This document shows positions 8,890 to 63,793 of a DNA stretch of 64,000 nucleotides, in pieces (within the stretch, counting starts at the first letter, position 1; every line of letters begins with the position of its first letter). Origin of the DNA: Musa acuminata AAA Group. Its lineage: Eukaryota > Streptophyta > Magnoliopsida > Zingiberales > Musaceae. The DNA lies in contig NC_088340.1 of the NCBI RefSeq assembly GCF_036884655.1, positions 29,700,501-29,764,500 of the forward strand. The letters run 5' to 3'. Made by a program: the position numbers and the translations under genes. Below the pieces are notes generated by a model. It had not been told where the DNA came from and made no database searches. It was given only the letters and a program-made list of their open reading frames with translations.

Positions 8890-8893
8890 GTTT

Positions 8894-37160: not shown

Positions 37161-38294
37161 TCTCTGTTTCGTGCCTTCTTTTCAGCGATGTCTGGAATGA
37201 ATGACTTGTTGCGTAGTCTTACCAAAGCTCTAGAAAGAGTTATTTGCAGTTGCCACAGCAGCAATTGAGAAGTGCGAGGAATCAGGATTCCGCTACAGTG
37301 AAAAAAGAGGGTGGGGGGTGTGTTTCAACCAACTTTAGCAGGTTAGTTGTAGGATTTGTGTGTGTGTGTTTTTTCACCTTCTATGTGGAATATACGTTTT
37401 GCGTTTGTGTCAGTGTATTTCTTGGTTAGTTATATAGAAGCCGTGTGATATTATCAAATTAGGTTTCAATGATGTATCACCAAATATTTGGTGATTTATC
37501 TATCTTTAGGCTATTGCTACTTCTTTAAATATATAAATATTTGCGATTTTAATGTCTTTCCACTTTGATAGAGAAGTTGGCCATAGTGCTGCAGTCCACA
37601 CTGGTTATTTCCGACTTTATTGTCTCCGATCTAAATTGACCAGCGACCTTCGATGCTTGGAGCGTACTGAAGGAGGAGAGCTCCATTTGGAGAAATCAAT
37701 GCGACGTTAAACACCAAATTCTACTGTGCTCTCAAAAGAATCTCAACATCTTTGTAAACGGAATAAACAAAAAAAAAAAAGAAAGTAAAATGCAGATATC
37801 AAAACTAAACATGGGTTAATATTAATGATGATACAATCATGACATATGCCAAAAAAAAAAAAAAAAACAAGAGTGCCATCCGCATGAAACAACTTTGGGT
37901 TATCCCTCTCGAGCTTTGGAGCTGCAACTGCTCCTTCCAAAAAAAAAAGAAAAAAAAAAAGGGCTGTGTTGAAAAGTAATTCTTATTTTGAATTTTAGTA
38001 GCCCATCTTGCGAACACTGTCCGGCAAGTTGTCAAGTAATGCAAGATAAACCGAAATTTACAAGTGACAATAACCTAAATGAAGAAAATATTAATCAAAT
38101 TAATAAGTATGAAATATACTTGTTAGTCAGATCAGAGATTGAACTGTTTAACCGTCATAAAGCCGACTAGCCGATACATTCCTTGTCTGATTTTGTACTG
38201 GTTCCAGCCCAACCATAAAATGCCATATCTTTCCAAACATGGGAACTTACCGACTCTTACTTTGGTTTAGAAAGGTAAAAGAGAGTTTTAAACG

Positions 38295-38295
<1 letters not shown>
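37161..38295. other. 3' flank of the Pumilio gene and intergenic spacer
   Basis: It includes the likely Pumilio 3' UTR (to perhaps 37560) and several poly-A runs (37770, 37850, 37940). No gene or element is recognised. Confidence 0.4.

Positions 38296-38364
<69 letters not shown>
38296..38364. repeat. (GA)n microsatellite
   Basis: A continuous GA dinucleotide run of about 69 bp. Confidence 0.95.
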
Positions 38365-39391: not shown

Positions 39392-40602
39392 TGTTAGGAT
39401 CAAGTTGGCACTAAGAAGGGGGTGAATTAGTGCTTTCGATAAAAACGACATCAATTCGAAAATTCATTCAATAAAGATTGTATTCGAAAAAATATTTAAA
39501 CTTAAAAATGTTCGTAAGTGATTAAGGGTAGTGAGAAGTAAATCAACGAGTAATGAGAAAGAAAAGCATGAAAGAAATGACATAGAAAGAAACCACATTG
39601 GATTTATAATGGTTCAGTCCTTGTGACCTACGTCCACTCCCAATTCCTCCTCTGTTGAGGCCATCGGTATCAACTAATGGTCTTCCTTTAATGGGCGAAC
39701 ACCAACCACCCTCTTACAACACTTTCTCCTTTTCACGGGTTTAGGAGCCAACCCTTACAAACCTCACACATCTCTTAGAATATTCACAAAACTAGAAAGG
39801 GAAGAGGAGGACATTTAGCAATTTTACAATCTAAAATCTCAAGATTTTTATTCACACTTTCGTACTCTTTCATGCAGGAAAGAGTGGGGTATCTATAGGC
39901 CCCAATAGCTTCAAAAATGGAGCCAAAAAGTGTCTTATCACAGGTTTTCGAGGTACTAGCGATACCACCACCATTATTGAGTGGTACCATTGCTTGCAGA
40001 CTGATATTGGACGGTACGATCGCTTGACAAAGCCTCGGAGATCGGGCTCTGGCGATACCACCGCCCGACAGCATTAAATACCAGTGGTACTACCGCCCAG
40101 ACCACCTAGGAAGCTAAGAGCCTTAGGCGATACCATCGCCTAGTCTAGGCGGTGCCACCCCCTGACATGGCTCCAAGTGGCTGATTGGGCCATCCAACCG
40201 GTCCAATTCAGCATTGTTTTGGGCTCAATTGGCCCATAATTGAGTTAAATCTAAAACAATTATGGTATACGTAATCTAAGTTGTCTAGTACGTCAATTGT
40301 TCAACCGAACACTTGATGAATTTTCAACGAATTCTCGACGATGTTCCAGCGAACTTTCGACGAGCTTTCGGCAAACTCCCGGCGAACTTCCGGCGAGCTT
40401 TCACTACATCATCTGATCCTTCGGTATATCCCTCGATTCATCCGACCTGATGCCCGATCATAGACTCCGGCCTAACTTCGATTCTTCTTTAATCATTTTA
40501 CCTTTTTCATGATCATAGTTAGTACTACATCACTTATTTTAATATATGGATTAGATCATTCATTCACTAATTGATGTCATCATCAAAATTTGAGATTCAA
40601 CA
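39392..40602 (-). repeat. 3' LTR of copia element M1 (1211 bp)
   Basis: In plus-strand text it starts TGTTAGGATCAAG and ends GAGATTCAACA, the reverse complement of the family termini. The neighbouring ATCTCCCCCTTTTT is the complement of the polypurine tract. The middle (about 39950-40170) contains GGTACCACC/GCGATACCACC motifs typical of this LTR family. Confidence 0.85.
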
Positions 40603-41650
40603 ATCTCCCCCTTTTTAATGATGACAACCAATTGACAAGGGAGTTAACCCTAAATCCCCCTATCTATATGCTATATTAAGATAAAGCAAACTTGAATTCA
40701 AAAAGAATCATGACCTTTGAATTCAAGTGAAACAATTTTGATTGATAAAATGTAATATATCAAAATTTCATAAATTGTTCATCATCATAGATTAAATTCA
40801 TCAAAGTATAACATGCATAATTTCATCACTTCATGCGTGATAAAAAATCAACATCACTTTAGGCATAAACTACATGATACTAAAGCATTTATCACTTCAT
40901 GCATGATACCAAAATTAATGTCATTTTGGGCATAACATTCATGATACCAAAATATATTTTAACCATTTATCACTTCATGCATGATACCACATTCAACATC
41001 ATTTTAGCATGATTCCAAACATTTATCATTTCTCTCCCTTTGTCATCAACAAAAAGGAGAATCATTCAATAATTTATGCAAGTATTTTAAACTACTCAAG
41101 TAAGTTTTACACCAATTTATGCATGGTAGCAAATTTGTGAAATGAGAAGTTAAGCAAAAATTTTGCAAGATAATCAATTTTGCTTCTTGAAATGGGCAAG
41201 TTAGTACTACTCTTTAGATGTGCAAACACTTTTTTATTCTTATTGACATGTGCAAGCTTTTTTCTCCTTTTTGATATAAAAATAAGATGAGGAAAAAGAA
41301 GAAGAAGGGAGGAATTCATTCATCATAAAAAAATCAAGTTATAAGAACCAAAAGTCCATGAATCAAACTTCTTTCGCAAAGAGAAAGGATTCATAAAAGA
41401 TCAAAATGTGCATACTAAAGATTCATGAATTAAATCTCTTTTTTGTAAATAGAATAAAGAAAGATTCATATGAAATAATCATCGCATAAAAGATCAAGTA
41501 TATCAAAAATTCATGAATGAAACTTCAAGAAGGTGATAGGAAATGATCTCAATAAAGAGAAAACTCAATTTCCAAAAGTCAAAAAATCTGAAAAATATAA
41601 AAGAGGAGCTATGTATCAAAAAGATTTAACATACCTAATTCTATTCTAAT
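40603..41650 (-). other. Copia M1 3' spacer (non-coding, AT-rich)
   Basis: This lies between RNase H and the polypurine tract. Variants of CATTTATCACTTCATGCATG followed by ATACCAAA recur with a period of about 60 bp (40800-41040). There is no env-like frame. Confidence 0.6.
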
Positions 41651-41658
41651 AAAATAAA

Positions 41659-42192
41659 TTATTCCTTATTTAATGGTTTTATAAAAATATCAGCTAATTG
41701 ATGTTTAGTATCAATAAATTCTACAGATATATCATGGTTATTAATATGATCTCTTATAAAATGATGCATAATATCAATATGTTTAGTTCTAGAGTATTGA
41801 ATGAGATTTTTTATTAAACAAATTATATTATTATTGTCACATTTTATAAGTATGAATTTCAAGTGAATTTCATAATTTTCTAAGGTATTTTTGATCCAAA
41901 TAACTTATGCATAACATGTACCTACTGCTATATACTCAACTTCGGTTGTAAATAATACAACCGAGTTTTATTTCTTGGAAGATCAAGAGACAAGTACATG
42001 ACATAAGAGTTTACATGTTCCAAATATGTTTTTCTATCTATTTGACATCTAGTAAAATCATCATTGGCATAAGCAATCAATTCAAGATTTTTAGTTTTTG
42101 GATATCATAAACCTAGATTAGGAGTTCCTTTTAGGTATCTAAATATTCTTTTAACAGCTTTTAAGCGAGATTGCTTGGGATTTGATTGAAAT
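41659..42192 (-). pseudogene. RNase H / 3' RT remnant of copia M1
   Basis: The C-terminus of copia RNase H is visible as SRTKHIDIMHHFIRDH and HQLADIFIKPLNKE (41659-41862). Upstream in minus orientation is QSNPKQSRLKAVKRIFRYLK (42105-42192), which continues into repeat unit A. Stops separate the pieces. This part is single-copy and lies outside the tandem amplification. Confidence 0.8.
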
Positions 42193-42420
42193 CTAGTACA
42201 TAGTCCAATACTAAACATAATATCAAGTCTAGTTAATATGAGGTATAATAAACTATCTATCATACCCCTATAAGTCTTTTGATCAAAACATTCTATATTA
42301 ATGTCTATATCTAATTTTGTAGAAGTGTTCATTGGTATATTAATAGCCATAGCATTATCCATATTAAATCATTTTAATAGATCTAACACATATTTAGTTT
42401 GACTAAAAAAAGTTCCATCA

Positions 42421-42816
42421 CTAAGTTAGTTTGATTTGTAAGCTTAGGAAAAAGGTTAATTCCCCCATTAAACTCATTTCGAATTCATGACTCATACTAT
42501 TGGCAAAAGATTCATATAAAGACTCATTTGAAGATCCAAAAATGATATCATCAACATAACTTTGAACAACGAGAAAATTATTTTTAAAATATTTAATAAA
42601 CAATATATTATCGACCTTGCTTTTCATAAAATTATTCTTAATTAGAAAGGAACTAAGTCTCTTGTACCAAGCCCTTGGGGCTTGTTTCAAACCACAAAGA
42701 GCCTTAGACAACTTAAAAACATAATTCAGAAAAATGGTATTCTCAAATTCGGGTGGTTGTTCAATATAAACTTTTTCGAAAATAAAGCCATTAAGAAAAG
42801 TACTTTTAACATCCAT
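42421..42816 (-). pseudogene. Copia reverse transcriptase core fragment (unit A)
   Basis: The 131-aa frame includes MDVKSTFLNG (the first catalytic Asp region), KALCGLKQAPRAWYKRL, and QSYVDDIIFGS with the YVDD active site. A stop after LSLQIKLT breaks the domain. Near-identical frames occur in unit B (46316-46711) and unit D (54090-54485). In unit C only 50271-50489 is open because of small deletions near 50380 and 50560. Confidence 0.85.
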
Positions 42817-42941
42817 TTAAAATAACTTAAAATTATTACAACTAGCATAGACAACGAGAATCCTTATGGCTTCAAGTCTAGCTATAGGAGCAAATATTTT
42901 TTCATAATCGATACATTCTTCTTGGTTGAAACCTTTTGCCA

Positions 42942-43457
42942 CTAATCTAGCTTTGTTTTTAATACAATACCAAGTTCATCTTGTTTATTTCTAAAGATGC
43001 ATTTAGTACCTATTACTAAATGATCACTAGGTCTAGGAACAAGCTTCCATACCTCATTTCTCTCAAATTGATTGAATTCCTGATGCATTGCAAAAACCCA
43101 TGAATCATTTTTCAGGACTTTGTCAATGCATTTTGGTTCAATTTGAGACAAGAAGGCTATATTAGCATAAAAATTCTTAAATGAAGAGCGAGTTTGAACA
43201 TCTTTTGATATATCTCCAATGATCAGCTCCTTAGGATAAGCATCTACATACTTCCAATCCTTAGGTAAGGATTCTTTAGAAGAAGATGCATTCAAGTTGC
43301 TTAGGGGAGGAGAGTTTTTATTCAAATTTAAAATATAAAAATTAAGATCATCATCAAAATTATTTTTCTTAAATTCGGGAACCTCATTAAATATAATATG
43401 AATAGATTCCTCTATAACCAAAGTTCTTTTATTAAAGACACAAAAATCTTTAGACAT
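42942..43457 (-). pseudogene. Copia integrase C-terminus to RT start (unit A)
   Basis: The 171-aa frame starts MSKDFCVFNKRTLVIEES and ends with the entry into RT (GTKCIFRNKQDELGIV). It links the integrase tail to RT in the normal pol order. The counterparts are 46837-47352, 50719-51234 and 54611-55126. Upstream, the integrase core is broken by stops, for example EF followed by a stop after RSDHSG (about 43840). Confidence 0.85.
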
Positions 43458-44306
43458 AGAGGAATAACCAAGAAAAATGCCTTCATCAAATTTTGCATCA
43501 AATTTTCCTAAGGCATCTTTTTCATTTAAAATAAAATATTTATAACCGAAAACTTTAAAATATAAAATATAAAATATTGGGTCTTTTGTTGTTCCACAAT
43601 TTATAGGGAGTTTTGGAAAGTAATGGTCTTACAAGAACCCTGTTCATGACATAGTATGTCGTATTAACGGCTTCGGCCTAAAAGCACTTAGGTAGGCTAT
43701 GCTCATTAAGTATGGTTCTTGCCATTTCTTGTAAACTCTTATTTTTTCTCTCTACAACTCTATTTTTTTTAGGGTTTCTTGGAGTGGAGAAGTTATGGTT
43801 ATGCCCATTTGAATTATAAAATTGTTTAAAATCATGATTTTAAAATTCACCACTATGATCACTTCGAATAGAGGCACTCATAAAACCTTTTTTATTTTGA
43901 ACTAATTTATAAAATTTTAAAAAAATATTTAAAGCAATCATTTTTATGTGTCAAGAAGTATGTCAAAGTGTATCTACTATAATTATCAACAATTATAAAG
44001 GCATATTTACTATCTCATAGGCTTGTTGTATCAATTGGTCCAAATAAATCCATATGGATTAATTGTAGTGGTTTAGAGGTGCTTATTAGATTCTTTGATT
44101 TAAAATTACTTTTTATTTATTTTTCTAATTGACATGTATCACAAACTTTATCTTTAATAAACTTGATGCTAGGAATTTCTTTTACAAGTTCTCTAATTGA
44201 AATTTGAGAGACTAGTTTCATGACCTAAGCTCCTATGCCAAAGTCATGCATCATTGTCTAAAGTTGAAAAACATGTTTCATCGTAAAAATCATCAATATC
44301 AATAGT

Positions 44307-44594
44307 TTACACATTATTATTTTTTAAGGCAATCATAGATATATTTTTGTATGGTATTTCAATTACACAAGTATTAGATTCAAATTTGATAATATATTTT
44401 TTATCACACAATTGATTAATGCTTAGTAGATTATGCTTTAAACTATCTACTAATAACACATCTTCAATTAAAAGGTTTGATTTGTTACCTATATTTCCTT
44501 TACCCATAATTTTTCCTTTGTTGTTGTCTCCGAAGGTGACAAATCCTTCGTCTTGGCTAGTGAGCTTAAAGAAGTATGTTGGATCCTCGATCAT
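44307..44594 (-). pseudogene. Copia protease / GAG-pre-integrase region (unit A)
   Basis: This frame follows the protease motif HM[IT]EDP and reads FGDNNKGKIMGKGNIGNKSN and HNLLSINQLCDKKYIIKFES, conserved in copia pol between protease and integrase. The counterparts are 48191-48478, 52083-52370 and 55975-56262. Confidence 0.8.
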
Positions 44595-44657
44595 ATGCCT
44601 TGAGCATCCACTATTAAGGTACCATCTCTTGCTCCTAGCTTGTGATTATAGACATAT

Positions 44658-46051
44658 CTATAAGAAATGAGATTTTCTTTTAGGCACCCATTTAACCTTA
44701 GGTCTCTCATAAATATATCTATCTATCATTGAGTGATTTATGATTCCTTTCGGAATCCAAACTAATTTGTATTGACTATACCTTTTAAATGGATATTTGT
44801 AAGCAAAATGATCATATTTTTCACAAAAATTATATTTTTCTCTAGGTGAGACATGTAATGTAGGTCCCTTAATGAAGATGGTTGGGTTTTGTTGAGTGTT
44901 ACTCACAAAGCCAATTCCTTCGTTTCTATGAACATGACCCTTATTAGTAAGGATCATGTTTAGAGATATATTACTTATTTTAAATTTTTTTAATATTTCT
45001 TATAGTAAGACATTTTCTTTTCTAAATGAATCTATCTTATCACACTTAGTGCAAGAAGCTAACAAACTATCATCGTGCTTATTTTTTGATTTATCAAATT
45101 TATTAACAAGAGAAGCATGCTCCTTTTTTAACAACTTATATTTTTTACCAACCACCTGACATTCATCATATAGATCATTCAAAGCGATAAGTAAATCATC
45201 ATAAGCTAAATAAGATTCGATTGAGTTATTTACCTTGTCATTGAGCATCATTAGAGCATATTTAGCAACTTATTCTTTGTTGGTTGGCTCTTCATCTTCG
45301 GATGCACTCGAATCATCCCAAGTTGCTTTGAGCACATTCTTTTTCTTTGGTAGCTTCTTCTTCACTTGAGGACATTCATAGCAAATTACTTGGTTCTTTT
45401 TTAGTTCACTTTTGTTCTTAGTATCTTATTTTATTTTGTTCTTTTTTTAGAATTTTTTAAACCTTCTTGTAAGAAGTGGCAAGTCATCATCATTATCATC
45501 ATCATCATCACTTAAGTTTTCACCCAATGGCATTCTTTGGTTCTAAGTGCCATGTCATTCATGTTCTTTGGAAAGTTATTCTCAAGTTCATCATGTGCTA
45601 TACACATCATTTCATAGGTCATTAAGGACCCAATAAATTCTTCGAGCATAAAGTTATTAATATCTTTTGCTTCTTATATTGTCATTACTTTAGGATCCCA
45701 ACTTTTTGGAAGAGATCTTAATATCTTGTTAACAAGTTTAAAATTAGAAAAACTTTTACTAAGTGCTTTTAGACCATTGATGACATCCATAAAATGTGTG
45801 TACATGTCTCTAATAGTCTCGCTTGGTTTTATACAAAACAACTCATAGCTATGAACAAAAAGATTAATTTTTGACTTTTTAACCCTACTTGTGCCTTCAT
45901 GTATGACTTCAAGTGTCTGCCAAATTTTATGTGCAGTTTTGCATATAGAAACCCAATTAAATTCATTCTTATTAAAAACACAAAATAAAGTATTCATCGC
46001 TTTAGCATTCAAAGAGAAGGTCTTATTTTCCAAATCATTCAATTCGTTCAT
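44658..46051 (-). pseudogene. Copia gag fragments (unit A)
   Basis: Three frames: UBN2-type gag (45674-46051, NDLENKTFSLNAKAMNTLF), a coil region (45000-45251) and the nucleocapsid region (44658-44957). In the nucleocapsid the zinc knuckle reads CEKYDHFAYKYPF, with the last Cys changed to Tyr. Stops between them, such as the TAA after ENVLL near 45000, occur at the same places in all four units. Confidence 0.8.
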
Positions 46052-46087
46052 TGGTTTGGAAGACTTCTCAAAACCACTTTCAACAAT

Positions 46088-49000
46088 CTAGTACATAGTC
46101 CAATACTAAACATAATATCAAGTCTAGTTAGTATGAGGTATAATAAACTATCTATCATACCCCTATAAGTCTTTTGATCAAAACATTCTATATTAATGTC
46201 CATATCTAATTTTGTAGAAGTGTTCATTGGTATATTAATAGCCATAGCATTATCCATATTAAATCATTTTAATAGATCTAACACATATTTAGTTTGACTA
46301 AAAAAAGTTCCATCACTAAGTTAGTTTGATTTGTAAGCTTAGGAAAAAGGTTAATTCCCCCATTAAACTCATTTCGAATTCATGACTCATACTATTGGCA
46401 AAAGATTCATATAAAGACTCATTTGAAGATCCAAAAATGATATCATCAACATAACTTTGAACAACGAGAAAATTATTTTTAAAATATTTAATAAATAATA
46501 TATTATCGACCTTGCTTTTCATAAAATTATTCTTAATTAGAAAGGAACTAAGTCTCTCGTACCAAGCCCTTGGGGCTTGTTTCAAACCACAAAGAGCCTT
46601 AGACAACTTAAAAACATAATTCAGAAAAATGGTATTCTCAAATTCGGGTGGTTGTTCAATATAAACTTTTTCGAAAATAAAGCCATTAAGAAAAGTACTT
46701 TTAACATCCATTTAAAATAACTTAAAATTATTACAACTAGCATAGACAACGAGAATCCTTATGGCTTCAAGTCTAGCTATAGGAGCAAATATTTTTTCAT
46801 AATCGATATATTCTTCTTGGTTGAAACCTTTTGCCACTAATCTAGCTTTGTTTCTAATACGATACCAAGTTCATCTTGTTTATTTCTAAAGATGCATTTA
46901 GTACCTATTACTAAATGATCACTAGGTCTAGGAACAAACTTCCATACCTCATTTCTCTCAAATTGATTGAATTCCTGATGCATTGCAAAAACCCATGAAT
47001 CATTTTTCAGGACTTTGTCAATGCATTTTGGTTCAATTTGAGACAAGAAGGCTATATTAGCATAAAAATTCTTAAATGAAGAGCGAGTTTGAACATCTTT
47101 TGATGCATCTCCAATGATCAGCTCCTTAGGATAAGCATCTACATACTTCCAATCCTTAGGTAAGGATTCTTTAGAAGAAGATGCATTCAAGTTGCTTAGG
47201 GGAGGAGAGTTTTTATTCAAATTTAAAATATAAAAATTAAGATCATCATCAAAATTATTTTTCTTAAATTCGGGAACCTCATTAAATATAATATGAATAG
47301 ATTCCTCTATAACCAAAGTTCTTTTATTAAAGACACAAAAATCTTTAGACATAGAGGAATAACCAAGAAAAATGCCTTCATCAAATTTTGCATCAAATTT
47401 TCCTAAGGCATCTTTTTCATTTAAAATAAAATATTTATAACCGAAAACTTTAAAATATAAAATATAAAATATTGGGTCTTTTGTTGTTCCATAATTTATA
47501 GGGAGTTTTGGAAAGTAATGGTCTTACAAGAACCCTGTTCATGACATAGTATGTCGTATTAACGGCTTCGGCCCAAAAGCACTTAGGTAGGCTATGCTCA
47601 TTAAGTATGGTTCTTGCCATTTCTTGTAAACTCTTATTTTTTCTCTCTACAACTCTATTTTTTTTAGGGTTTCTTGGAGTGGAGAAGTTATGGTTATGCC
47701 CATTTGAATTATAAAATTGTTTAAAATCGTGATTTTAAAATTCACCACTATGATCACTTCGAATAGAGGCACTCATAAAACCTTTTTTATTTTGAACTAA
47801 TTTATAAAATTTTAAAAAAATATTTAAAGCAATCATTTTTATGTGTCAAGAAGTATGTCCAAGTGTATCTACTATAATTATCAACAATTATAAAGGCATA
47901 TTTACTATCTCATAGGCTTGTTGTATCAATTGGTCCAAATAAATCCATATGGATTAATTGTAGTGGTTTAGAGGTGCTTATTAGATTCTTTGATTTAAAA
48001 TTACTTTTTATTTATTTTTCTAATTGACATATATCACAAACTTTATCTTTAATAAACTTGATGCTAGGAATTTCTTTTACAAGTTCTCTAATTGAAATTT
48101 GAGAGACTAGTTTCATGACCTAAGCTCCTATGCCAAAGTCATGCATCATTGTCTAAAGTTATCATTGTAAAAATCATCAATATCAATAGTTTACACATTA
48201 TTATTTTTTAAGGCAATCATAGATATATTTTTGTATGGTATTTCAATTACACAAGTATTAGATTCAAATTTGATAATATATTTTTTATCACACAATTGAT
48301 TAATGCTTAGTAGATTATGCTTTAAACTATCTACTAATAACACATCTTCAATTAAAAGGTTTGATTTGTTACCTATATTTCCTTTACCCATAATTTTTCC
48401 TTTGTTGTTGTCTCCGAAGGTGACAAATCCTTCGTCTTGGCTAGTGAGCTTAAAAAAGTATGTTGGATCCTCGATCATATGCCTTGAGCATCCACTATTA
48501 AGGTACCATCTCTTGCTCCTAGCTTGTGATTATAGACATATCTATAAGAAATGAGATTTTCTTTTAGGCACCCATTTAACCTTAGGTCTCTCATAAATAT
48601 ATCTATCTATCATTGAGTGATTTATGATTCCTTTCGGAATCCAAACTAATTTGTATTGACTATACCTTTTAAATGGATATTTGTAAGCAAAATGATCATA
48701 TTTTTCACAAAAATTATATTTTTCTCTAGGTGAGACATGTAATGTAGGTCCTTTAATGAAGATGGTTGGGTTTTGTTGAGTGTTACTCACAAAGCCAATT
48801 CCTTCGTTTCTATGAACATGACCCTTATTAGTAAGGATCATGTTTAGAGATATATTACTTATTTTAAATTTTTTTAATATTTCTTATAGTAAGACATTTT
48901 CTTTTCTAAATGAATCTATCTTATCACACTTACTGCAAGAAGCTAACAAACTATCATCGTGCTTATTTTTTGATTTATCAAATTTATTAACAAGAGAAGC

Positions 49001-49971
49001 ATGCTCCTTTTTTAACAACTTATATTTTTTACCAACTACCTTACATTCATCATATAGATCATTCAAAGCGATAAGTAAATCATCATAAGCTAAATAAGAT
49101 TCGATTGAGTTATTTACCTTGTCATTGAGCGTCATTAGAGCATATTTAGCAACTTATTCTTTGTTGGTTGGCTCTTCGTCTTCGGATGCACTCGAATCAT
49201 CCCAAGTTGCTTTGAGCACATTCTTTTTCTTTGGTAGCTTCTTCTTCACTTGAGGACATTCATAGCAAATTACTTGGTTCTTTTTTAGTTCACTTTTGTT
49301 CTTAGTATCTTATTTTATTTTGTTCTTTTTTTAGAATTTTTTAAACCTTCTTGTAAGAAGTGGCAAGTCATCATCATTATCATCATCATCATCACTTAAG
49401 TTTTCACCCAATGGCATTCTTTGGTTCTAAGTTCCATGTCATTCATGTTCTTTGGAAAGTTATTCTTAAGTTCATCATGTGCTATACACATCATTTCATA
49501 GGTCATTAAGGACCCGATAAATTCTTCGAGCATAAAGTTATTAATATCTTTTGCTTCTTATATTGTCATTATTTTAGGATCCCAACTTTTTGGAAGGGAT
49601 CTTAATATCTTGTTAACAAGTTTAAAATTAGAAAAACTTTTACTAAGTGCTTTTAGACCATTGATGACATCCATAAAATGTGTGTACATGTCTCTAATAG
49701 TCTCGCTTGGTTTTATACAAAACAACTCATAGCTATGAACAAAAAGATTAATTTTTGACTTTTTAACCCTACTTGTGCTTTCGTGTATGACTTCAAGTGT
49801 CTGCCAAATTTTATGTGCAGTTTTGCATATAGAAAACCAATTAAATTCATTCTTATCAAAAACATAAAATAAAGTATTCATCGCTTTAGCATTCAAAGAG
49901 AAGGTCTTATTTTCCAAATCATTCAATTCGTTCATTGGTTTGGAAGACTTCTCAAAACCACTTTCAACAAT
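46088..49971 (-). repeat. Tandem unit B of copia M1 (3884 bp)
   Basis: Same content and order as unit A. The RT frame is 46316-46711, integrase/RT 46837-47352, protease 48191-48478, and gag 48542-49935. It lacks 11 bp present in the others near 48160 (after GTCTAAAGTT). It alone keeps an intact Trp codon (TGG) in integrase near 47571, where A, C and D have TAG. Confidence 0.92.
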
Positions 49972-52900
49972 CTAGTACATAGTCCAATACTAAACATAAT
50001 ATCAAGTCTAGTTAGTATGAGGTATAATAAACTATCTATCATACGCCTATAAGTCTTTTGATCAAAACATTCTATATTAATGTCCATATCTAATTTTGTA
50101 GAAGTGTTCATTGGTATATTAATAGCCATAGCATTATCCATATTAAATCATTTTAATAGATCTAACACATATTTAGTTTGACTAAAAAAAGTTCCATCAC
50201 TAAGTTAGTTTGATTTGTAAGCTTAGGAAAAAGGTTAATTTCCCCATTAAACTCATTTCGAATTCATGACTCATACTATTGGCAAAAGATTCATATAAAG
50301 ACTCATTTGAAGATCCAAAAATGATATCATCAACATAACTTTAAACAACGAGAAAATTATTTTTAAAATATTTAATAACAATATATTATCGACCTTTCTT
50401 TTCATAAAATTATTCTTAATTAGAAAGGAACTAAGTCTCTCGTACCAAGCCCTTGGGGCTTGTTTCAAACCACAAAGAGCCTTAGACAACTTAAAAACAT
50501 AATTCAGAAAAATGGTATTCTCAAATTCGGGTGGTTGTTCAATATAAACTTTTTCGAAATAAAGCCATTAAGAAAAGTACTTTTAACATCCATTTAAAAT
50601 AACTTAAAATTATTACAACTAGCATAGACAACGAGAATCCTTATGGCTTCAAGTCTAGCTATAGGAGCAAATATTTTTTCATAATCGATACATTCTTCTT
50701 GGTTGAAACCTTTTGCCACTAATCTAGCTTTGTTTCTAATACGATACCAAGTTCATCTTGTTTATTTCTAAAGATGCATTTAGTACCTATTACTAAATGA
50801 TCACTAGGTCTAGGAACAAGCTTCCATACCTCATTTCTCTCAAATTGATTGAATTCCTGATGCATTGCAAAAACCCATGAATCATTTTTCAGGACTTTGT
50901 CAATGCATTTTGGTTCAATTTGAGACAAGAAGGCTATATTAGCATAAAAATTCTTAAATGAAGAGCGAGTTTGAACATCTTTTGATGTATCTCCAATGAT
51001 CAGCTCCTTAGGATAAGCATCTACATACTTCCAATCCTTAGGTAAGGATTCTTTAGAAGAAGATGCATTCAAGTTGCTTAGGGGAGGAGAGTTTTTATTC
51101 AAATTTAAAATATAAAAATTAAGATCATCATCAAAATTATTTTTCTTAAATTCGGGAACCTCATTAAATATAATATGAATAGATTCCTCTATAAACAAAG
51201 TTCTTTTATTAAAGACACAAAAATCTTTAGACATAGAGGAATAACCAAGAAAAATGCCTTCATCAAATTTTGCATCAAATTTTCCTAAGGCATCTTTTTC
51301 ATTTAAAATAAAATATTTATAACCGAAAACTTTAAAATATAAAATATAAAATATTGGGTCTTTTGTTGTTCCACAATTTATAGGGAGTTTTGGAAAGTAA
51401 TGGTCTTACAAGAACCCTGTTCATGACATAGTATGTCGTATTAACGGCTTCGGCCTAAAAGCACTTAGGTAGACTATGCTCATTAAGTATGGTTCTTGCC
51501 ATTTCTTGTAAACTCTTATTTTTTCTCTCTACAACTCTATTTTTTTTAGGGTTTCTTGGAGTGGAGAAGTTATGGTTATGCCCATTTGAATTATAAAATT
51601 GTTTAAAATCATGATTTTAAAATTCACCACTATGATCACTTCGAATAGAGGCACTCATAAAACCTTTTTTATTTTGAACTAATTTATAAAATTTTAAAAA
51701 ATATTTAAAGCAATCATTTTTATGTGTCAAGAAGTATGTCAAAGTGTATCTACTATAATTATCAACAATTATAAAGGCATATTTACTATCTCATAGGCTT
51801 GTTGTATCAATTGGTCCAAATAAATCCATATGGATTAATTGTAGTGGTTTAGAGGTGCTTATTAGATTCTTTGATTTAAAATTACTTTTTATTTATTTTT
51901 CTAATTGACATGTATCACAAACTTTATCTTTAATAAACTTGATGCTAGGAATTTCTTTTACAAGTTCTCTAATTGAAATTTGAGAGACTAGTTTCATGAC
52001 CTAAGCTCCTATGCCAAAGTCATGCATCATTGTCTAAAGTTGAAAAACATGTTTCATCGTAAAAATCATCAATATCAATAGTTTACACATTATTATTTTT
52101 TAAGGCAATCATAGATATATTTTTGTATGGTATTTCAATTACACAAGTATTAGATTCAAATTTGATAATATATTTTTTATCACACAATTGATTAATGCTT
52201 AGTAGATTATGCTTTAAACTATTTACTAATAACACATCTTCAATTAAAAGGTTTGATTTGTTACCTATATTTCCTTTACCCATAATTTTTCCTTTGTTGT
52301 TGTCTCCGAAGGTGACAAATCCTTCGTCTTGGCTAGTGAGCTTAAAGAAGTATGTTGGATCCTCGATCATATGCCTTGAGCATCCACTATTAAGGTACCA
52401 TCTCTTGCTCCTAGCTTGTGATTATAGACATATCTATAAGAAATGAGATTTTCTTTTAGGCACCCATTTAACCTTAGGTCTCTCATAAATATATCTATCT
52501 ATCATTGAGTGATTTATGATTCCTTTCGGAATCCAAACTAATTTGTATTGACTATACCTTTTAAATGGATATTTGTAAGCAAAATGATCATATTTTTCAC
52601 AAAAATTATATTTTTCTCTAGGTGAGACATGTAATGTAGGTCCCTTAATGAAGATGGTTGGGTTTTGTTGAGTGTTACTCACAAAGCCAATTCCTTCGTT
52701 TCTATGAACATGACCCTTATTAGTAAGGATCATGTTTAGAGATATATTACTTATTTTAAATTTTTTTAATATTTCTTATAGTAAGACATTTTCTTTTCTA
52801 AATGAATCTATCTTATCACACTTAGTGCAAGAAGCTAACAAACTATCATCATGCTTATTTTTTGATTTATCAAATTTATTAACAAGAGAAGCATGCTCCT

Positions 52901-53861
52901 TTTTTAACAACTTATATTTTTTACCAACTACCTTACATTCATCATATAGATCATTCAAAGCGATAAGTAAATCATCATAAGCTAAATAAGATTCGATTGA
53001 GTTATTTACCTTGTCATTGAGCGTCATTAGAGCATATTTAGCAACTTATTCTTTGTTGGTTGGCTCTTCGTCTTCGGATGCACTCGAATCATCCCAAGTT
53101 GCTTTGAGCACATTCTTTTTCTTTGGTAGCTTCTTCTTCACTTGAGGACATTCATAGCAAATTACTTGGTTCTTTTTTAGTTCACTTTTGTTCTTAGTAT
53201 CTTATTTTATTTTGTTCTTTTTTTAGAATTTTTTAAACCTTCTTGTAAGAAGTGGCAAGTCATCATCATTATCATCATCATCATCACTTGAGTTTTCACC
53301 CAATGGCATTCTTTGGTTCTAAGTGCCATGTCATTCATGTTCTTTGGAAAGTTATTCTCAAGTTCATCATGTGCTATACACATCATTTCATAGGTCATTA
53401 AGGACCCAATAAATTCTTCGAGCATAAAGTTATTAATATCTTTTGCTTCTTATATTGTCATTACTTTAGGATCCCAACTTTTTGGAAGAGATCTTAATAT
53501 CTTGTTAACAAGTTTAAAATTAGAAAAACTTTTACTAAGTGCTTTTAGACCATTGATGACATCCATAAAATGTGTGTACATGTCTCTAATAGTCTCGCTT
53601 GGTTTTATACAAAACAACTCAGCTATGAACAAAAAGATTAATTTTTGACTTTTTAACCCTACTTGTGCCTTCGTGTATGACTTCAAGTGTCTGCCAAATT
53701 TTATGTGCAGTTTTGCATATAGAAATCCAATTAAATTCATTCTTATCAAAAACACAAAATAAAGTATTCATCGCTTTAGCATTCAAAGAGAAGGTCTTAT
53801 TTTCCAAATCATTCAATTCGTTCATTGGTTTGGAAGACTTCTCAAAACCACTTTCAACAAT
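49972..53861 (-). repeat. Tandem unit C of copia M1 (3890 bp)
   Basis: Same content and order. Small deletions break frames here only: one base in the poly-A near 50560, one near 50379, and two bases near 53622 in gag (ACTCAGCTATG instead of ACTCATAGCTATG). It shares several variants with unit D, for example GTAGACTATGC near 51470. Confidence 0.92.
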
Positions 53862-56800
53862 CTAGTACATAGTCCAATACTAAACATAATATCAAGTCTA
53901 GTTAGTATGAGGTATAATAAACTATCTATCATACCCCTATAAATCTTTTGATCAAAACATTCTATATTAATGTCCATATCTAATTTTGTAGAAGTGTTCA
54001 TTGGTATATTAATAGCCATAGCATTATCCATATTAAATCATTTTAATAGATCTAACACATATTTAGTTTGACTAAAAAAAGTTCCATCACTAAGTTAGTT
54101 TGATTTGTAAGCTTAGGAAAAAGGTTAATTCCCCCATTAAACTCATTTCGAATTCATGACTCATACTATTGGCAAAAGATTCATATAAAGACTCATTTGA
54201 AGATCCAAAAATGATATCATCAACATAACTTTGAACAACGAGAAAATTATTTTTAAAATATTTAATAAACAATATATTATCGACCTTGCTTTTCATAAAA
54301 TTATTCTTAATTAGAAAGGAACTAAGTCTCTCGTACCAAGCCCTTGGGGCTTGTTTCAAACCACAAAGAGCCTTAGACAACTTAAAAACATAATTCAGAA
54401 AAATGGTGTTCTCAAATTTGGGTGGTTGTTCAATATAAACTTTTTCGAAAATAAAGCCATTAAGAAAAGTACTTTTAACATCCATTTAAAATAACTTAAA
54501 ATTATTACAACTAGCATAGACAACGAGAATCCTTATGGCTTCATGTCTAGCTATAGGAGCAAATATTTTTTCATAATCGATACATTTTTCTTGGTTGAAA
54601 CCTTTTGCCACTAATCTAGCTTTGTTTCTAATACGATACCAAGTTCATCTTGTTTATTTCTAAAGATGCATTTAGTACCTATTACTAAATGATCACTAGG
54701 TCTAGGAACAAGCTTCCATACCTCATTTCTCTCAAATTGATTGAATTCCTGATGCATTGCAAAAACCCATGAATCATTTTTCAGGACTTTGTCAATGCAT
54801 TTTGGTTCAATTTGAGACAAGAAGGCTATATTAGCATAAAAATTCTTAAATGAAGAGCGAGTTTGAACATCTTTTGATGTATCTCCAATGATCAGCTCCT
54901 TAGGATAAGCATCTACATACTTCCAATCCTTAGGTAAGGATTCTTTAGAAGAAGATGCATTCAAGTTGCTTAGGGGAGGAGAGTTTTTATTCAAATTTAA
55001 AATATAAAAATTAAGATCATCATCAAAATTATTTTTCTTAAATTTAGGAACCTCATTAAATATAATATGAATAGATTCCTCTATAACCAAAGTTCTTTTA
55101 TTAAAGACACAAAAATCTTTAGACATAGAGGAATAACCAAGAAAAATGCCTTCATCAAATTTTGCATCAAATTTTCCTAAGGCATCTTTTTCATTTAAAA
55201 TAAAATATTTATAACCGAAAACTTTAAAATATAAAATATAAAATATTGGGTCTTTTGTTATTCCACAATTTATAGGGAGTTTTGGAAAGTAATGGTCTTA
55301 CAAGAACCCTGTTCATGACATAGTATGTCGTATTAACGGCTTCGGCCTAAAAGCACTTAGGTAGACTATGCTCATTAAGTATGGTTCTTGCCATTTCTTG
55401 TAAACTCTTATTTTTTCTCTCTACAACTCTATTTTTTTTAGGGTTTCTTGGAGTGGAGAAGTTATGGTTATGCCCATTTGAATTATAAAATTGTTTAAAA
55501 TCATGATTTTAAAATTCACCACTATGATCACTTCGAATAGAGGCACTCATAAAACCTTTTTTATTTTGAACTAATTTATAAAATTTTAAAAAATATTTAA
55601 AGCAATCATTTTTATGTGTCAAGAAGTATGTTAAAGTGTATCTACTATAATTATCAACAATTATAAAGGCATATTTACTATCTCATAGGCTTGTTGTATC
55701 AATTGGTCCAAATAAATCCATATGGATTAATTGTAGTGGTTTAGAGGTGCTTATTAGATTCTTTGATTTAAAATTACTTTTTATTTATTTTTCTAATTGA
55801 CATGTATCACAAACTTTATCTTTAATAAACTTGATGCTAGGAATTTCTTTTACAAGTTCTCTAATTGAAATTTGAGAGACTAGTTTCATGACCTAAGCTC
55901 CTATGCCAAAGTCATGCATCATTGTCTAAAGTTGAAAAACATGTTTCATCGTAAAAATCATCAATATCAATAGTTTACACATTATTATTTTTTAAGGCAA
56001 TCATAGATATATTTTTGTATGGTATTTCAATTACACAAGTATTAGATTCAAATTTGATAATATATTTTTTATCACACAATTGATTAATGCTTAGTAGATT
56101 ATGCTTTAAACTATCTACTAATAACACATCTTCAATTAAAAGGTTTGATTTGTTACCTATATTTCCTTTACCCATAATTTTTCCTTTGTTGTTGTCTCCG
56201 AAGGTGACAAATCCTTCGTCTTGGCTAGTGAGCTTAAAGAAGTATGTTGGATCCTCGATCATATGCCTTGAGCATCCACTATTAAGGTACCATCTCTTGC
56301 TCCTAGCTTGTGATTATAGACATATCTATAAGAAATGAGATTTTCTTTTAGGCACCCATTTAACCTTAGGTCTCTCATAAATATATCTATCTATCATTGA
56401 GTGATTTATGATTCCTTTCGGAATCCAAACTAATTTGTATTGACTATACCTTTTAAATGGATATTTGTAAGCAAAATGATCATATTTTTCACAAAAATTA
56501 TATTTTTCTCTAGGTGAGACATGTAATGTAGGTCTTTTAATGAAGATGGTTGGGTTTTGTTGAGTGTTACTCACAAAGCCAATTCCTTCGTTTCTATGAA
56601 CATGACCCTTATTAGTAAGGATCATGTTTAGAGATATATTACTTATTTTAAATTTTTTTAATATTTCTTATAGTAAGACATTTTCTTTTCTAAATGAATC
56701 TATCTTATCACACTTAGTGCAAGAAGCTAACAAACTATCATCGTGCTTATTTTTTGATTTATCAAATTTATTAACAAGAAAAGCAAGCTCCTTTTTTTAC

Positions 56801-57755
56801 AACTTATATTTTTTACCAACTACCTTACATTCATCATATAGATCATTCAAAGCGATAAGTAAATCATCATAAGCTAAATAAGATTTGATTGAGTTATTTA
56901 CCTTGTCATTGGGCGTCATTAGAGCATATTTAGCAACTTATTCTTTGTTGGTTGGCTCTTCGTCTTCGGATGCACTCGAATCATCCCAAGTTGCTTTGAG
57001 CACCTTCTTTTTCTTTGGTAGCTTCTTCTTCACTTGAGGACATTCATAGCAAATTACTTGGTTCTTTTTTAGTTCACTTTTGTTCTTAGTATCTTATTTT
57101 ATTTTGTTCTTTTTTTAGAATTTTTTAAACCTTCTTGTAAGAAGTGGCAAGTCATCATCATTATCATCATCATCATTACTTAAGTTTTCACCCAATGGCA
57201 TTCTTTGGTTCTAAGTGCCATGTCATTCATGTTCTTTGGAAAGTTATTCTCAAGTTCATCATGTGCTATACACATCATTTCATAGGTCATTAAGGACCCA
57301 ATAAATTCTTCGAGCATAAAGTTATTAATATCTTTTGCTTCTTATATTGTCATTACTTTAGGATCCCAACTTTTTGGAAGGGATCTTAATATCTTGTTAA
57401 TAAGTTTAAAATTAGAAAAACTTTTACTAAGTGCTTTTAGACCATTGATGACATCCATAAAATGTGTGTACATGTCTCTAATAGTCTCGCTTGGTTTTAT
57501 ACAAAACAACTCATAGCTATGAACAAAAAGATTAATTTTTGACTTTTTAACCCTACTTGTGCCTTCGTGTATGACTTCAAGTGTCTGCCAAATTTTATGT
57601 GCAGTTTTGCATATAGAAACCCAATTAAATTCATTCTTATCAAAAACACAAAATAAAGTATTCATCGCTTTAGCATTCAAAGAGAAGGTCTTATTTTCCA
57701 AATCATTCAATTCATTCATTGGTTTGTAAGACTTCTCAAAACCACTTTCAACAAT
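53862..57755 (-). repeat. Tandem unit D of copia M1 (3894 bp)
   Basis: Same content and order; RT frame 54090-54485, integrase/RT 54611-55126, protease 55975-56262, gag 56326-57719. It is the only unit whose gag end continues into the element's own gag N-terminus (CAACAATGTTTCATAAA), so it is the unit nearest the original 5' side. Confidence 0.92.
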
Positions 57756-57857
57756 GTTTCATAAATTAAAATCTATAGAAAATAAGAAGATTCTCATTTT
57801 AGTTTTCCAATACATGTAGTCCGTCCCATTGAACATAGGAGGACGAGTGATAGAAAT

Positions 57858-59168
57858 GTTGGGAAATCTAGGGGCGACATCACATGCGCAGCAGAAGAAC
57901 AAAAAATAAAAAACCCCAAATTTTCCAATATATGTTCGTCGTCGTGCGTAGATTGGTACGCAAAACCTACAAAATAGAAAACCATATATGAGATAGTTGT
58001 GTTACCTAGAGAGATCGTATATCCCTGAATCCCTGTAGATCTGTAAGAGTGGATGAAGAAGGTCAAGCGTCCTCCTCTCTAGCGGTGATCCACACAACAA
58101 GGCTGCAACGATGCTCCTCAAATCTCCATGCCTACTATCTAAGGAGGAGAAGGAGAGAGAAGAATAGGAGATGGCTACTAAGAAGCCCTAGCCTATGAGC
58201 ATTTAGTTCCCTCCTATTTATAGAGGCCCTTAGTTAGCCCTAATGGATCCTGCCCTATTGGGTACTAGATCTCCATCCAATTATCCAAGCCTCTTAGATT
58301 AGTGGGTCTCTACCCAATAATATCTTATTAGCTCTTATTGGATCTCATCCATGGGATCCAATAATTTAGGGGCTTATTGAATATCCAATAAGATAAGGGT
58401 TCCAACGAATATCTCATATCCGAACCTCTACTCGTCGTAACACATACCATATGTGTGTGACCCTCTAGGCCCAATATCGAGCTGATCGTGAGTCATACCT
58501 ATCAGAACTCCTTCTGGCTTAGTGAATTATTATCTTAATAATAATTCACTCGACTCATCGACTACGGATGTACTAGGCCACTACGCCGTAGTCCCTAGAA
58601 GATATAGGGGAATCCAATCCTTTGGACCTATTTGTCCTCAGTTATCATGTACCTATAGTCTCTCATCTATCTAATATCCCAAAGACCATATAGCGGGTAT
58701 GGTGCTGTCAGATCCATACGATTTCTCCTCGAGTCTCTATCTAATCAGATTCTCCCAGAGAACTCTTTCTCTCTCAATCTGAATGATCTTGGCCAAGGAT
58801 TTATTTGAGCAAGTACACACAGAATATTTCTCTCATGATACTGAGAGTGAATGATCCTGTATCGATACTCAATATCCCTTGTAAGGTTGGCTACCACTAC
58901 CAATAACCGACTGTACTAGATTTGGAATTTCCAAACCTATAAGTCCGGTATCAAAGAGTGGAGTACTCATATAGGACATCCTTGGTGTCTCAAGTCTAAG
59001 GACCAGATACACTACCGGGACTACAGAATCGTTGTCGAACAATAAGGCATCATCAACCATCTAGTATTTCGTGAGCGGATTAATCAATGAACTCATTCTC
59101 TAATGAGCACCTGTATTGTATCCTTAGTGTCCTCACACGAGCAACTATGAGACCAGCTACCTCCTATT
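57858..59168 (-). mobile_element. LTR / 3' part of an unrelated LTR retrotransposon
   Basis: Plus-strand text starts TGTTGGGAAATCTAGGGGCG, so in minus orientation it ends with a typical CCCAACA terminus. On the minus strand GCCTCTATAAATAGGAGG (about 58211-58228) is a good TATA box, which fixes the orientation. The other end is not clear, because it abuts the truncated SIRE-type LTR at about 59169. No pol sequence is present. It may be a solo LTR or a truncated 3' end. Confidence 0.65.
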
Positions 59169-60502
59169 AAGATCAAGAGCGACATTAAGGAGGGGGGGGG
59201 GGGGGTTTGGGGTGTGAATTAGTAAAGTGGAAAAAATCATCGGTTTTGTAAGATATTCATTCGTTGAAAACCAATCTCGGAAAGTGCTTGACTTTAGAGT
59301 AAATGAACTAACAATTAACTTAGAAAGTAATAGCAGTAATAAAAAGTAGAATGGAAATGAGCACACTAGAATTTATAGTGGTTCGGTCATTGTGATCAAT
59401 ATCTACTTCTAATTCCTCCTCCGTCGAGGTCACCAGTGTCCACTAATGGTCTTTCTTCAATGAGCGAAGACAAACACCCTCTTTACAACACTTTCTAATT
59501 TTTACAGGATTAGGAGACAACTCTTACAAACCTCACACCTCTCTTGAATGATCACAAGACTTAGAAAGGGAGGAGGACTCTTAGCACTTTTAAAATACTT
59601 TTAACACTCCAAGACTTTAAGATATTGTTCACACTTTCATACCCTTTTATGTAGAAAAGGGTGGGATATTTATAGGCCCTAATGACTTCAAAAATTGGAG
59701 CCAGAAAGTGTCACATCCTCGGTTTCCGGGATACTAGCGGTACCACTACCATTATTGGGCAGTACCACCACTTGCAGACTGACACTAGGCAGTACCACCG
59801 CTCAATTTGGGCAGTACGATCACTTGACAGAGCTCAAAGACCAAGCTCTAGTGGTACCACTACTTGGCAGCATTAATTGCTGGCGGCACTATCGCCCAGA
59901 TCACCTAGGAGGGAGGGTCTTAAGCGGTGCCATCGTCGGCCATGACTCCAAGGGACGGGACTGAATGAGCCTTCCAACCGACCCAATTCAGACTTGTTAA
60001 GGGCCCAATCAACCTCTAACTGAGTTAATGAGATTACCTCCCAAATCTAATCCTAATTACATGCTAACTATGATTCTTAAGGCATACACTAAGCAAATCA
60101 AGTCAGGCTAGTCTAGGTTTCTTTTAGCGAGCTTCCGGTGAACTTCCGACGAACTTCTGCCGATCTTTCAGCAATGTTCTAGCGGACTCTTAGCAAGCTC
60201 CTAGACTTCACGATGATCTTCTTGGTGAGTTCCAATGAGCTTATTTGGCAAGCTCCTAGACTTCTCGATCAATTCCGACAGAACTTTCGACGAACATCCG
60301 GGCTTTCGATGAACGTCCGAACTTCCAACGAACTCTCGAACTCCCAATGAAATCTTGATTTTGACTCCGGTACTTCGTTTTTCTTTATGCCTTGATTGCT
60401 ATCGTAGTTAATCTTGCACATTTTTCTCAACATATAGATTTGATCAAATAATTTATCAATTGATTTCATCATCAAAATCTGAGATTCAACAATCTCTCCC
60501 TT
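59169..60502 (-). repeat. SIRE-type copia LTR (3'-truncated), shared side of M2 and M1
   Basis: It reads CGACATTAAGGAGGGG at the left (the terminal TGTTAGGAC is missing) and ends GAGATTCAACA at the right, followed by the polypurine complement ATCTCTCCCTTTTTT of element M2. A run of 14 G (59192-59205) marks the position of the family's C-rich tract. The GGTACCACC/GCAGTACCACC motifs are at 59735-59940. Confidence 0.8.
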
Positions 60503-61929
60503 TTTTATGATGACAATCAATTGATGATGGAGTTAACCTTAACTCCCCCTATTTGTATGACATACTTGAGAAAAGACACTCTTGAATTCAAGGTTTTTGA
60601 ATTCAAGTATCAAACAGATAAGTTATATGCATTTAAACTTATCGACATACACATCATGATACCAATCATGATTTACTATATCAAAATACGATATCATATA
60701 TTTATCATAATACAAATGATGTCAGGTATGACATTCATTTTTGAGTCCAATGATGATAGACAATCATCCTTTTTAAGTATGATACAAATTTTAAATATGA
60801 AATTTAGCAAGATGACAATTCTCGATAAAAGATGACAATTCATCATTCCGAGGCATGATATCAATTGTAAATAGCAAGTTAAACTCATGACACCTTATCA
60901 TAATGATAGACAATTATCAAGCATTCATGAAATATTTTAAGTATATACGATACATATGAAATATATTTTGATATGTTTTAAGTATTTGTGATGTATTTGA
61001 CGATTCCAATTATATTTCAAGCATTCGTAAAACATTTAAGCATTTACGATAAGATACATTTTATGCATTTATCTAAAACATTCATAATGCCAATTTATTA
61101 TCAATTTGTCATATTTCTCCCCCTTTGTCATTAACAAAAAGAAGAATCATTCAACAATACAAGTGTGGTAAAAAAAAAATTCAAGCAAGTTCTGCACCAA
61201 TTTATCGAAGCCACAAAGAAGGTAAGCAAAAACTTTCCATGATAACTTCTTTTGGATAAGCTAACATTTTTACTTTGGATGCGCAATGGCTTTTCGATTC
61301 TTCTTTAGATGTGCAAGTTTCTTTCTTCCTTTGTCATAAAAATAAAAAGAAGAGGAAGAATGGTAAGAAAGGAATTCATCAAGAACCAAATTTATAAAAG
61401 AATTTGAACCAAAATAAATGAATTTCATTGAATCAAGCTTCTAGTTCAACAAGGAGAAGGGATTCATGAAAAGGATTAAGATATCCATACAAAATCAAAT
61501 CCCCATTCTTGCAAGTGATCATCACAATCCATCAAAATTCTTCTTTCATAAGAAGAGTATGAAGGAATTCATGAGAAAGGAGTATCATATGAAGGATAAA
61601 AAAAATCCATGAATAAAACTTTATAAATCAAATCTGTTTCTCATTAAAAATTCACAAGAGTGAAATCTATAAGAGATGTATTTGTCAATAAATTCCATGA
61701 GTGAAGGGACTAAGTGTATCAAAAATCATTAAGTGATGGAGCAAGAGTATGAAATAAATTTGATACCAAGTAAATTGATATTCCGGATTTTATGAAAGCC
61801 TTATTTTTGAAATGAAATAATTTCATGAAAGCTTTATTTTAAAAAATCAAGAAATTTTGGAAAAGATATACAACAAACTCATGCATTCAGACAATTTAAC
61901 ATTCCTAACTCTCTTCTAATAAAATCAAA
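60503..61929 (-). other. Copia M2 3' spacer (non-coding, AT-rich)
   Basis: It corresponds to 40603-41650 of element M1, with CATTTATCA/CATGATACC-like degenerate repeats and no conserved frame. Confidence 0.55.
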
Positions 61930-62980
61930 TTATTCTTCATTTAAAGGTTTTGTAAAGATATCAACTAATTGATGTTTCATATCAATAAACTCTAAAGATA
62001 TATTATGGTTATTAACATGATCTCTTATGAAATGATGCCTAATGTCAATATGTTTAGTTCTAGAATGTTGAATAGGATTTTTTGTTAAATATATTGCACT
62101 TGTGTTATCACATTTTATGAGAATATTCTTAAGGTGAATCTTATAATCTTCTAATATATTTTTCATCCCTACAACTTGTGCACAACATGCACTAACTGCT
62201 ATATACTCCGCTTCGGTTGTAGATAATGCAACCGAGTTTTATTTCTTAGAAGACCAAGGTACAAGTGTATAACCTAAGAATTGACACGTTCCAGATGTGC
62301 TTTTTCTATCTTCTCTACATCCAACAAAATTTGTATCAGCATAAGCAATTAATTCAAATTTTTTAAATTTTGGATACCATAATCTTAAACCAGGGGTTCC
62401 TTTTAGATATCTAAGGATTCGTTTAACTGCTTTAAGATGAGTTGGCTTAGGATTAGATTGAAATCTAGGATAAAGTCCTATGCTAAACATTATGTTCGGT
62501 CTAGTTGCGATGAGGTATAGTAAACTACCTATCATACCCCTATAAGTTTTTTGATCAAAGCTTTCTCCACTTTCGTCCATGTCTAACTTAATGGAGGTAC
62601 TCATAGGAGTATTGATAGCTTTTGAACCATCCATATTAAACCATTTTAGAAATTCTAATACATATTTGGTTTGACTAAGAAAAATAACATCACTAAATTG
62701 TTTGATTTGTAAGCCTAAAAAGAAAGTTAGTTCACCCATTAAACTAATCTCAAATTCTTGACTCATACTCTTAGCAAACGATTCACATAAGGATTCATTT
62801 ATAGAACCAAAAATAATATCATCAACATAAATTTGAATAAGAAGAAAGTCATTTTCAAAATTTTTAATAAATAATATAGTATCGACCTTGCCTTTAGAGA
62901 AATTATTTTGGATAAGAAATAAGCTAAGTCTTTCATACCAAGCTCTCGAGGCTTGTTTTAATCCATAAAGAGCTTTAGTT
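61930..62980 (-). pseudogene. Copia M2 reverse transcriptase-RNase H pseudogene
   Basis: On the minus strand this is almost open: KALYGLKQASRAWYERLS, QIYVDDIIFGS (YVDD active site), TYRGMIGSLLYLIATRPNIM, HLKAVKRILRYLKGTPGLRL, AYADTNFVGCREDRKSTSGT, then one TAA at 62239 in place of a Gln or similar codon. RNase H follows (ALSTTEAEYIAVSACCAQVV, TKHIDIRHHFIRDH). It is better preserved than M1, and its upstream half is cut off at 62981 by the inserted LTR. Without that insertion it would extend into the N-terminal part of RT. Confidence 0.88.
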
Positions 62981-63740: not shown

Positions 63741-63793
63741 TGGAAATCCAGGATTGGACACTTTTAGGCTCCATCTTTATACTCATTGCGGCC

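Follow-up and report, generated by a model that had tools for sequence, protein, structure and literature searches.

Four tandem units of LTR-free internal sequence in a dead copia remnant on one banana haplotype

The window analysed here, a 64,000-nucleotide stretch of Musa acuminata AAA Group (C14:29,700,501-29,764,500 of a 1.53-Gb assembly with 1060 contigs), contains on its minus strand a degraded Ty1/copia retrotransposon, M1, in which one internal segment occurs four times in succession. The head-to-tail array occupies positions 42190-57755 and is built of four units of about 3.9 kb inside one copia remnant, with lengths of 3895, 3884, 3890 and 3894 bp when the AAT common to both unit ends is counted once. 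Self-BLAST of the window yielded direct matches at offsets of 3895 (11.69 kb, 98.93%), 7779 (98.99%) and 11669 (99.08%), which bears out the four copies and the lengths proposed in an initial annotation made from the letters alone; its end point, 57755, also stands, while its start, 42193, lies 3 bp from ours owing only to the AAT ambiguity. Three versions of the locus are present in the assembly: the one with the array (C14) and two alleles, on C3 and C25. The features of M1 are as follows.

39392..40602, minus strand: 3' long terminal repeat (LTR) of M1 (TGTTGAATCTC ... CCTAACA), ends placed by eye; similar to the LTRs at 59371-60591 and 63621-63993
40603..42189, minus strand: single-copy left flank of M1, with the end of the reverse transcriptase (RT), a presumed RNase H region and the 3' untranslated region (UTR); 41559-42707 matches 61827-62978 across 42190; aligned in both alleles
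42190..46084, minus strand: unit 1 (3895 bp), running from early gag into late RT of the dead copia element, with broken frames; from self-comparison, alignment and Pfam
46085..49968, minus strand: unit 2 (3884 bp), with a private 11-bp deletion; from self-comparison and alignment
49969..53858, minus strand: unit 3 (3890 bp), with a private 2-bp deletion and two private 1-bp deletions; from self-comparison and alignment
53859..57755, minus strand: unit 4 (3894 bp plus the 3-bp AAT common to both unit ends); from self-comparison and alignment
46081..46094, plus strand: internal junction 1, CAACAATCTAGTAC, with the 3-bp microhomology AAT; exact match
49965..49978, plus strand: internal junction 2, the 14-mer CAACAATCTAGTAC; exact match
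53855..53868, plus strand: internal junction 3, the 14-mer CAACAATCTAGTAC; exact match
57756..57871, minus strand: single-copy right flank of M1, the N-terminal part of gag; 23720-24402 matches 57854-57170 across 57755; aligned in both alleles
57872..59165, minus strand: unrelated LTR-like stretch replacing the 5' end of M1, edges approximate and placed by eye from the sequence; present in both alleles

The host element has the gag and RT domains of the copia type. In unit 1, Retrotran_gag_2 (8.9e-22), Pol_BBD, SH3_retrovirus and RVT_2 (7.3e-33) score above the Pfam cut-off, accompanied by weak matches below it to gag_pre-integrase and the integrase core, all spread over several reading frames. 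The RNase H label of the left flank is that of the initial annotation and is putative; no RNase H domain came out of the Pfam searches. Matches to other elements of the window run unbroken over both outer borders of the array, so flanks and array belong to one element. A 5' LTR of M1 was not found, gag ending at about 57871 against the unrelated LTR-like stretch, and the same-strand LTR upstream of M1 is that of another element, being 72-79% like the M1 3' LTR where the two can be aligned. No LTR lies between units, and RT directly adjoins gag at all three junctions. M1 is described here as a long-dead SIRE/Maximus-like remnant, a lineage name that rests on the initial annotation and on the abundance of this lineage in Musa, for which 18-24% of the M. 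acuminata, M. schizocarpa and M. balbisiana assemblies has been reported (PMC11754795).

The 14-mer CAACAATCTAGTAC is found at every internal junction and exactly three times in the window. The trinucleotide AAT sits at both unit ends, in the window as well as in both single-unit alleles, and the array thus shows one junction with a short homology at both parental sites, the pattern of microhomology-mediated tandem duplication. When the genome was searched with a 300-bp junction query, the best 40 of 5868 candidates being scored, a full-length match was obtained at 3 of 41 places, all of them array junctions, and the remaining 38 covered at most 158 of the 300 bases; a full match elsewhere would have ranked first. 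Genome-wide the 14-mer occurs 10 times, 3 of them in the array. At the other seven sites the window has no similarity across the 14-mer, and these are taken as chance occurrences because a backward control gives 8.

On both C3 and C25 the flanks that adjoin the array enclose exactly one copy of the unit, 3886 bp long, or 3889 bp when both terminal AATs are counted. Together with the unbroken flank matches, this supports amplification inside a single element, with no LTRs between the copies, as first annotated. In the stretches compared, C3 aligns to window positions 29372-64000 at about 95.5-99.3%, with short gaps around 37975-38340, and C25 aligns to 39507-64000 at about 95-97%. Beyond 39507 on the left, the initial 1.5 kb of the C25 stretch compared gave no match, but C25 does have, at a greater distance on that side, the gag part of a neighbouring element (window 23720-25361), at 97%. 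By parsimony on these sequences, a single unit is the simplest ancestral state. The single unit in both alleles also speaks against a tandem that arrived by one insertion, provided that C3 and C25 did not contract. As to other insertions at the locus, one of about 9.2 kb with SIRE-like LTR ends, at window 59894-59897 inside the neighbouring 3' LTR, is common to C3 and C25 and absent from the array haplotype; another, of about 9.1 kb, is found on C25 only, in the M1 3' LTR at window 40426-40430, with a short target duplication, ATATC.

Substitutions amount to 0.57-1.06% between aligned units, 2.86-3.27% between units and alleles, and 2.37% between C3 and C25. The unit-allele values are bracketed by the divergence of the flanks between haplotypes (2.14-2.49% on the left, 3.80-3.81% on the right). 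With the units at 2.86-3.27% from the alleles, the amplification is most simply placed after the haplotypes split. Mean Kimura two-parameter distances are 0.0084 among units, 0.0315 between units and alleles and 0.0242 between C3 and C25. At 9e-9 per site per year, the rate applied to Musa LTRs (PMC3017797), they correspond to 0.47, 1.75 and 1.34 million years (My), respectively, and at a coding rate of 4.5e-9 to 0.93, 3.50 and 2.68 My; such absolute ages are inflated if the DNA is prone to deamination, and the ratio, which puts the array at about one quarter of the haplotype age, is the safer figure. With the frame path of unit 4 applied to all six rows, 11 in-frame stops are common to the four units and both alleles and 16 to the four units, while the stop changes private to single units comprise two gains and two losses; a separate path for each unit leaves 14 stops common to the four. 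These paths are approximate, having been picked stretch by stretch from tblastx matches to degraded relatives. The 11 stops found in units and alleles alike indicate that the element was dead before the haplotypes split, and hence before the amplification, if the latter came later.

The units differ from one another mostly in their own changes. At 51 of the 63 variable sites the change is private to one unit and derived by comparison with both alleles (10, 16, 7 and 18 in units 1-4), and five further sites show three states or agree with one allele only. Among 59 singletons polarised by the majority of the units, 39 are C to T on either strand: 12 at 68 CG sites, none at 24 CHG and 27 at 1045 CHH, the rate per CG site being about seven times that per CHH site. 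Such CG-enriched decay is as expected of methylated, silent DNA. Polarisation of the 59 singletons with relatives inside the window (38 agreeing with the majority, 15 disagreeing, 4 ambiguous and 2 without an outgroup base) was rejected as unreliable, and the alleles were used. Two further relatives from the genome, compared over 1722 columns, place 5 sites on the stem of the array and none on that of the alleles, with 19 undecided. The two internal branches among the units in the IQ-TREE tree are each about two sites long, with bootstrap values of 55 and 75, and five of the six resolved unit orders remain in the set retained by the approximately unbiased (AU) test. Short, weak internal branches and mainly private sites suggest that growth from one unit to four was fast relative to the age of the array, not provably in a single event. 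In alignment columns 2886-3325, changes private to units 1 and 4 are clustered and units 2 and 3 agree, which may reflect local exchange between units 2 and 3 or clustered mutation.

The array probably arose by tandem duplication at the DNA level within a long-dead copia remnant, followed by fast growth to four units and then by mostly independent decay. After one haplotype lineage had separated from the other two, an AAT in gag and another in RT, 3.89 kb away, would have been joined in it by end joining or template switching while a break or a stalled fork was being repaired, giving a tandem pair with a 3-bp microhomology at its junction; the junction and the single-unit allele are observed, and the process is what we infer. 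The 3.9-kb units could then have undergone unequal exchange, between chromatids or between homologues, or break-induced copying, which would have repeated the same junction and produced three, and within a short time four, units. Since then each unit has gathered its own mutations, chiefly C to T and enriched at CG, with exchange between units weak at most. The array is a structural variant of one haplotype without evident function, and none is proposed.

Several points weigh against this reading. The microhomology is of 3 bp only and could be due to chance. Seven of the 63 variable sites join two or three units in mutually conflicting ways, against 0.6-1.1 parallel changes expected by chance, and a 1-bp insertion in an A run joins units 1 and 2. 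IQ-TREE prefers the order (((1,3),4),2), the polytomy having p values of 0.0003 in the AU test, 0.08 in the KH test and 0.12 in the SH test. Units 2 and 3 agree at 11 consecutive variable sites, a run reached in 5 of 2000 shuffles (the best of six pairs, the other five giving 392-1818 of 2000), which hints at some exchange between units. The near-star divergence also fits a one-step multi-copy event, and had an older array contracted by unequal exchange, the single unit left on the other haplotypes would look the same. Finally, the four-unit structure is that of the assembled sequence.

The main rival to unequal exchange or break-induced copying is an extrachromosomal circular DNA (eccDNA) of one unit, formed by the same joining and multiplied by rolling circle, whose multimer would have re-entered the element by homologous recombination, adding the four units in one step. 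It would account for the identical junction at all three joints and for the near-star divergence, and yet it requires more steps, and no full junction match is found elsewhere among the best 40 of 5868 candidates; we regard it as unlikely. More improbable is an array that predates the haplotype split, of which the C3 and C25 lineages kept one unit after contraction and whose units on C14 stayed alike by homogenisation. Contraction by unequal exchange does yield exactly one clean unit, and the agreement of units 2 and 3 hints at exchange, but one or two contractions are needed as well as homogenisation through most of the history of the array, which is at odds with 51 of 63 variable sites being private to one unit.

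An assembly artefact, that is, chained or repeated reads or haplotypes strung together, is conceivable given the abundance of SIRE copies, the three assembled haplotypes and a structure taken from the assembly, and it was a worry of the initial annotation. From the side of the sequence this worry is largely answered: private changes, biased towards transitions and CG sites, number 7-18 per unit, the units are 0.8% apart and 3% from the other haplotypes, hence not their alleles, the junction is not found elsewhere among the same best 40 candidates, and there is no N letter in the 64-kb window. We consider an artefact a slim prospect, slightly below that of an older array.

A tandem formed during reverse transcription, by template switching or as multimeric cDNA, and inserted ready-made, as has been discussed for LTR tandems (PMC11899658), is most improbable here, since the same element at the same place has one unit in both alleles, the 11 common stops on the approximate frame path mark it as dead before amplification and no LTR separates the units. 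Equally implausible is unequal recombination between LTRs or the nesting of several elements, frequent as these are in plants (PMC11899658) and represented in this genome by an LTR-bearing tandem on C31 and C9, because the array contains no LTR, its junctions lie in gag and RT and both flanks derive from one element. Retrotransposition and LTR recombination were accordingly both discounted as the origin in view of the single-unit alleles, the common stops and the lack of LTRs.

Regarding how unusual the array is, second same-strand matches within 10 kb were sought in three genome surveys, restricted to the best 40 of 13,720, 9,627 and 20,203 candidates and so not giving genome-wide rates. None was seen at 36 other loci in the first (39 rows, with split rows merged) or at 40 loci in another, three of which represent M2, the element next to M1, on the three haplotypes; in the third, 2 of 38 loci had one, and these are alleles of one place on C31 and C9. 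There, at C31:35527001-35537000 and C9:35943501-35953500, apparently allelic, gag-containing internal parts stand in tandem with LTRs between them, the ordinary LTR-sharing kind, and the place was rejected as a second internal tandem. Full-text literature searches found no published work on the present locus. The array had been called unusual, which these surveys test only in part; satellites built from pieces of retrotransposons, be it LTR, gag or pol, are already described in print (PMC12628747).

LTR-sharing tandem retrotransposons are reported to be common in plants (PMC11899658). The tandem LTR-retrotransposons of rice and other plants resemble the banana array in lying head to tail at one locus and in being polymorphic between haplotypes; they share LTRs and are read by their authors as single insertions, illegitimate recombination being left open (PMC11899658), whereas the banana array has no LTR between successive internal regions and was amplified in an element already dead. 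CRM1TR and CRM4TR of maize are likewise tandem repeats derived wholly from retrotransposons, for which a start by illegitimate recombination at short homologies has been proposed, but they are described as made of LTR and UTR of gypsy elements, as lying in or near centromeres, as having been amplified since at least about 4 and 1 My before the present and as evolving mainly by gene conversion (PMC3648361); the banana array is of copia gag-to-RT sequence, has four units, lies with genes nearby and shows little exchange. Sobo of wild potato, with a 4.7-kb monomer, E3900 of rye and the gag/pol satellites also use retrotransposon pieces as monomers, and the relevant passages present them as established satellites and mention no accompanying unexpanded allele (PMC3648361, PMC12628747). 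The banana satellites CL18 (2226-bp unit) and CL33 (PMC3553004) are tandem repeats of the same genus, and none of seven published primers matches the window at fewer than 5 mismatches. The array is, like retrotransposon-derived satellites, a head-to-tail series of a retrotransposon segment; many monomers or several loci are lacking, there being four units at one locus on one haplotype, and in a check of concerted evolution the 51 private sites stood beside a single agreement run, that of units 2 and 3. It is a young, LTR-free, one-haplotype case of the known tandems of retrotransposon segments, in which expanded and unexpanded states can be compared with unusual clarity.

Other features of the window were also recorded. 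An open reading frame at 17633-19336 is 99% identical to a protein of Musa acuminata ssp. malaccensis, 93% to one of M. textilis and 90% to one of Ensete ventricosum. Two 447-bp direct repeats, 98% alike and offset by 4.1 kb with GC-rich sequence between them, lie at 4322-8890; they probably belong to a young element of LTR type that is nested within an old SIRE-like LTR (4143-4325 / 8878-9237). The minus-strand element M2 breaks off within RT, and at that point a SIRE-like LTR of opposite orientation sets in (62977-64000). A GC-rich minisatellite-like array with periods of 12, 28, 44 and 128 bp occupies 422-676, upstream of a DUF659 reading frame (1440-1949). The window gave no Rfam match at gathering scores and no tRNA with ARAGORN.

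On its own the array is one modest structural variant. Early satellite birth, as proposed in the initial annotation, is no more than a possibility, with four units at one locus on one haplotype, mostly private changes and no sign of further growth. A tentative and rather doubtful idea is that the array is a satellite at an early stage: a 3-bp microhomology would have started the duplication of coding sequence, free of LTRs, in a dead copia element, one short burst would have enlarged it, and the two single-unit alleles in the same nucleus would serve as dated controls. If it were true, and if larger or variable arrays occurred in banana accessions, satellites could start in retrotransposon interiors, with neither an LTR, a short internal repeat nor retrotransposition. 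For retrotransposon-derived satellites the first step is, in the accounts cited, otherwise deduced from old, grown arrays (PMC12628747, PMC3648361). Here one assembly brings together single-unit alleles, junction and a four-unit array dated relative to the divergence of the haplotypes, which offers a rare before-and-after view, and the first steps of tandem-repeat growth become testable in banana accessions through copy number and common mutations.

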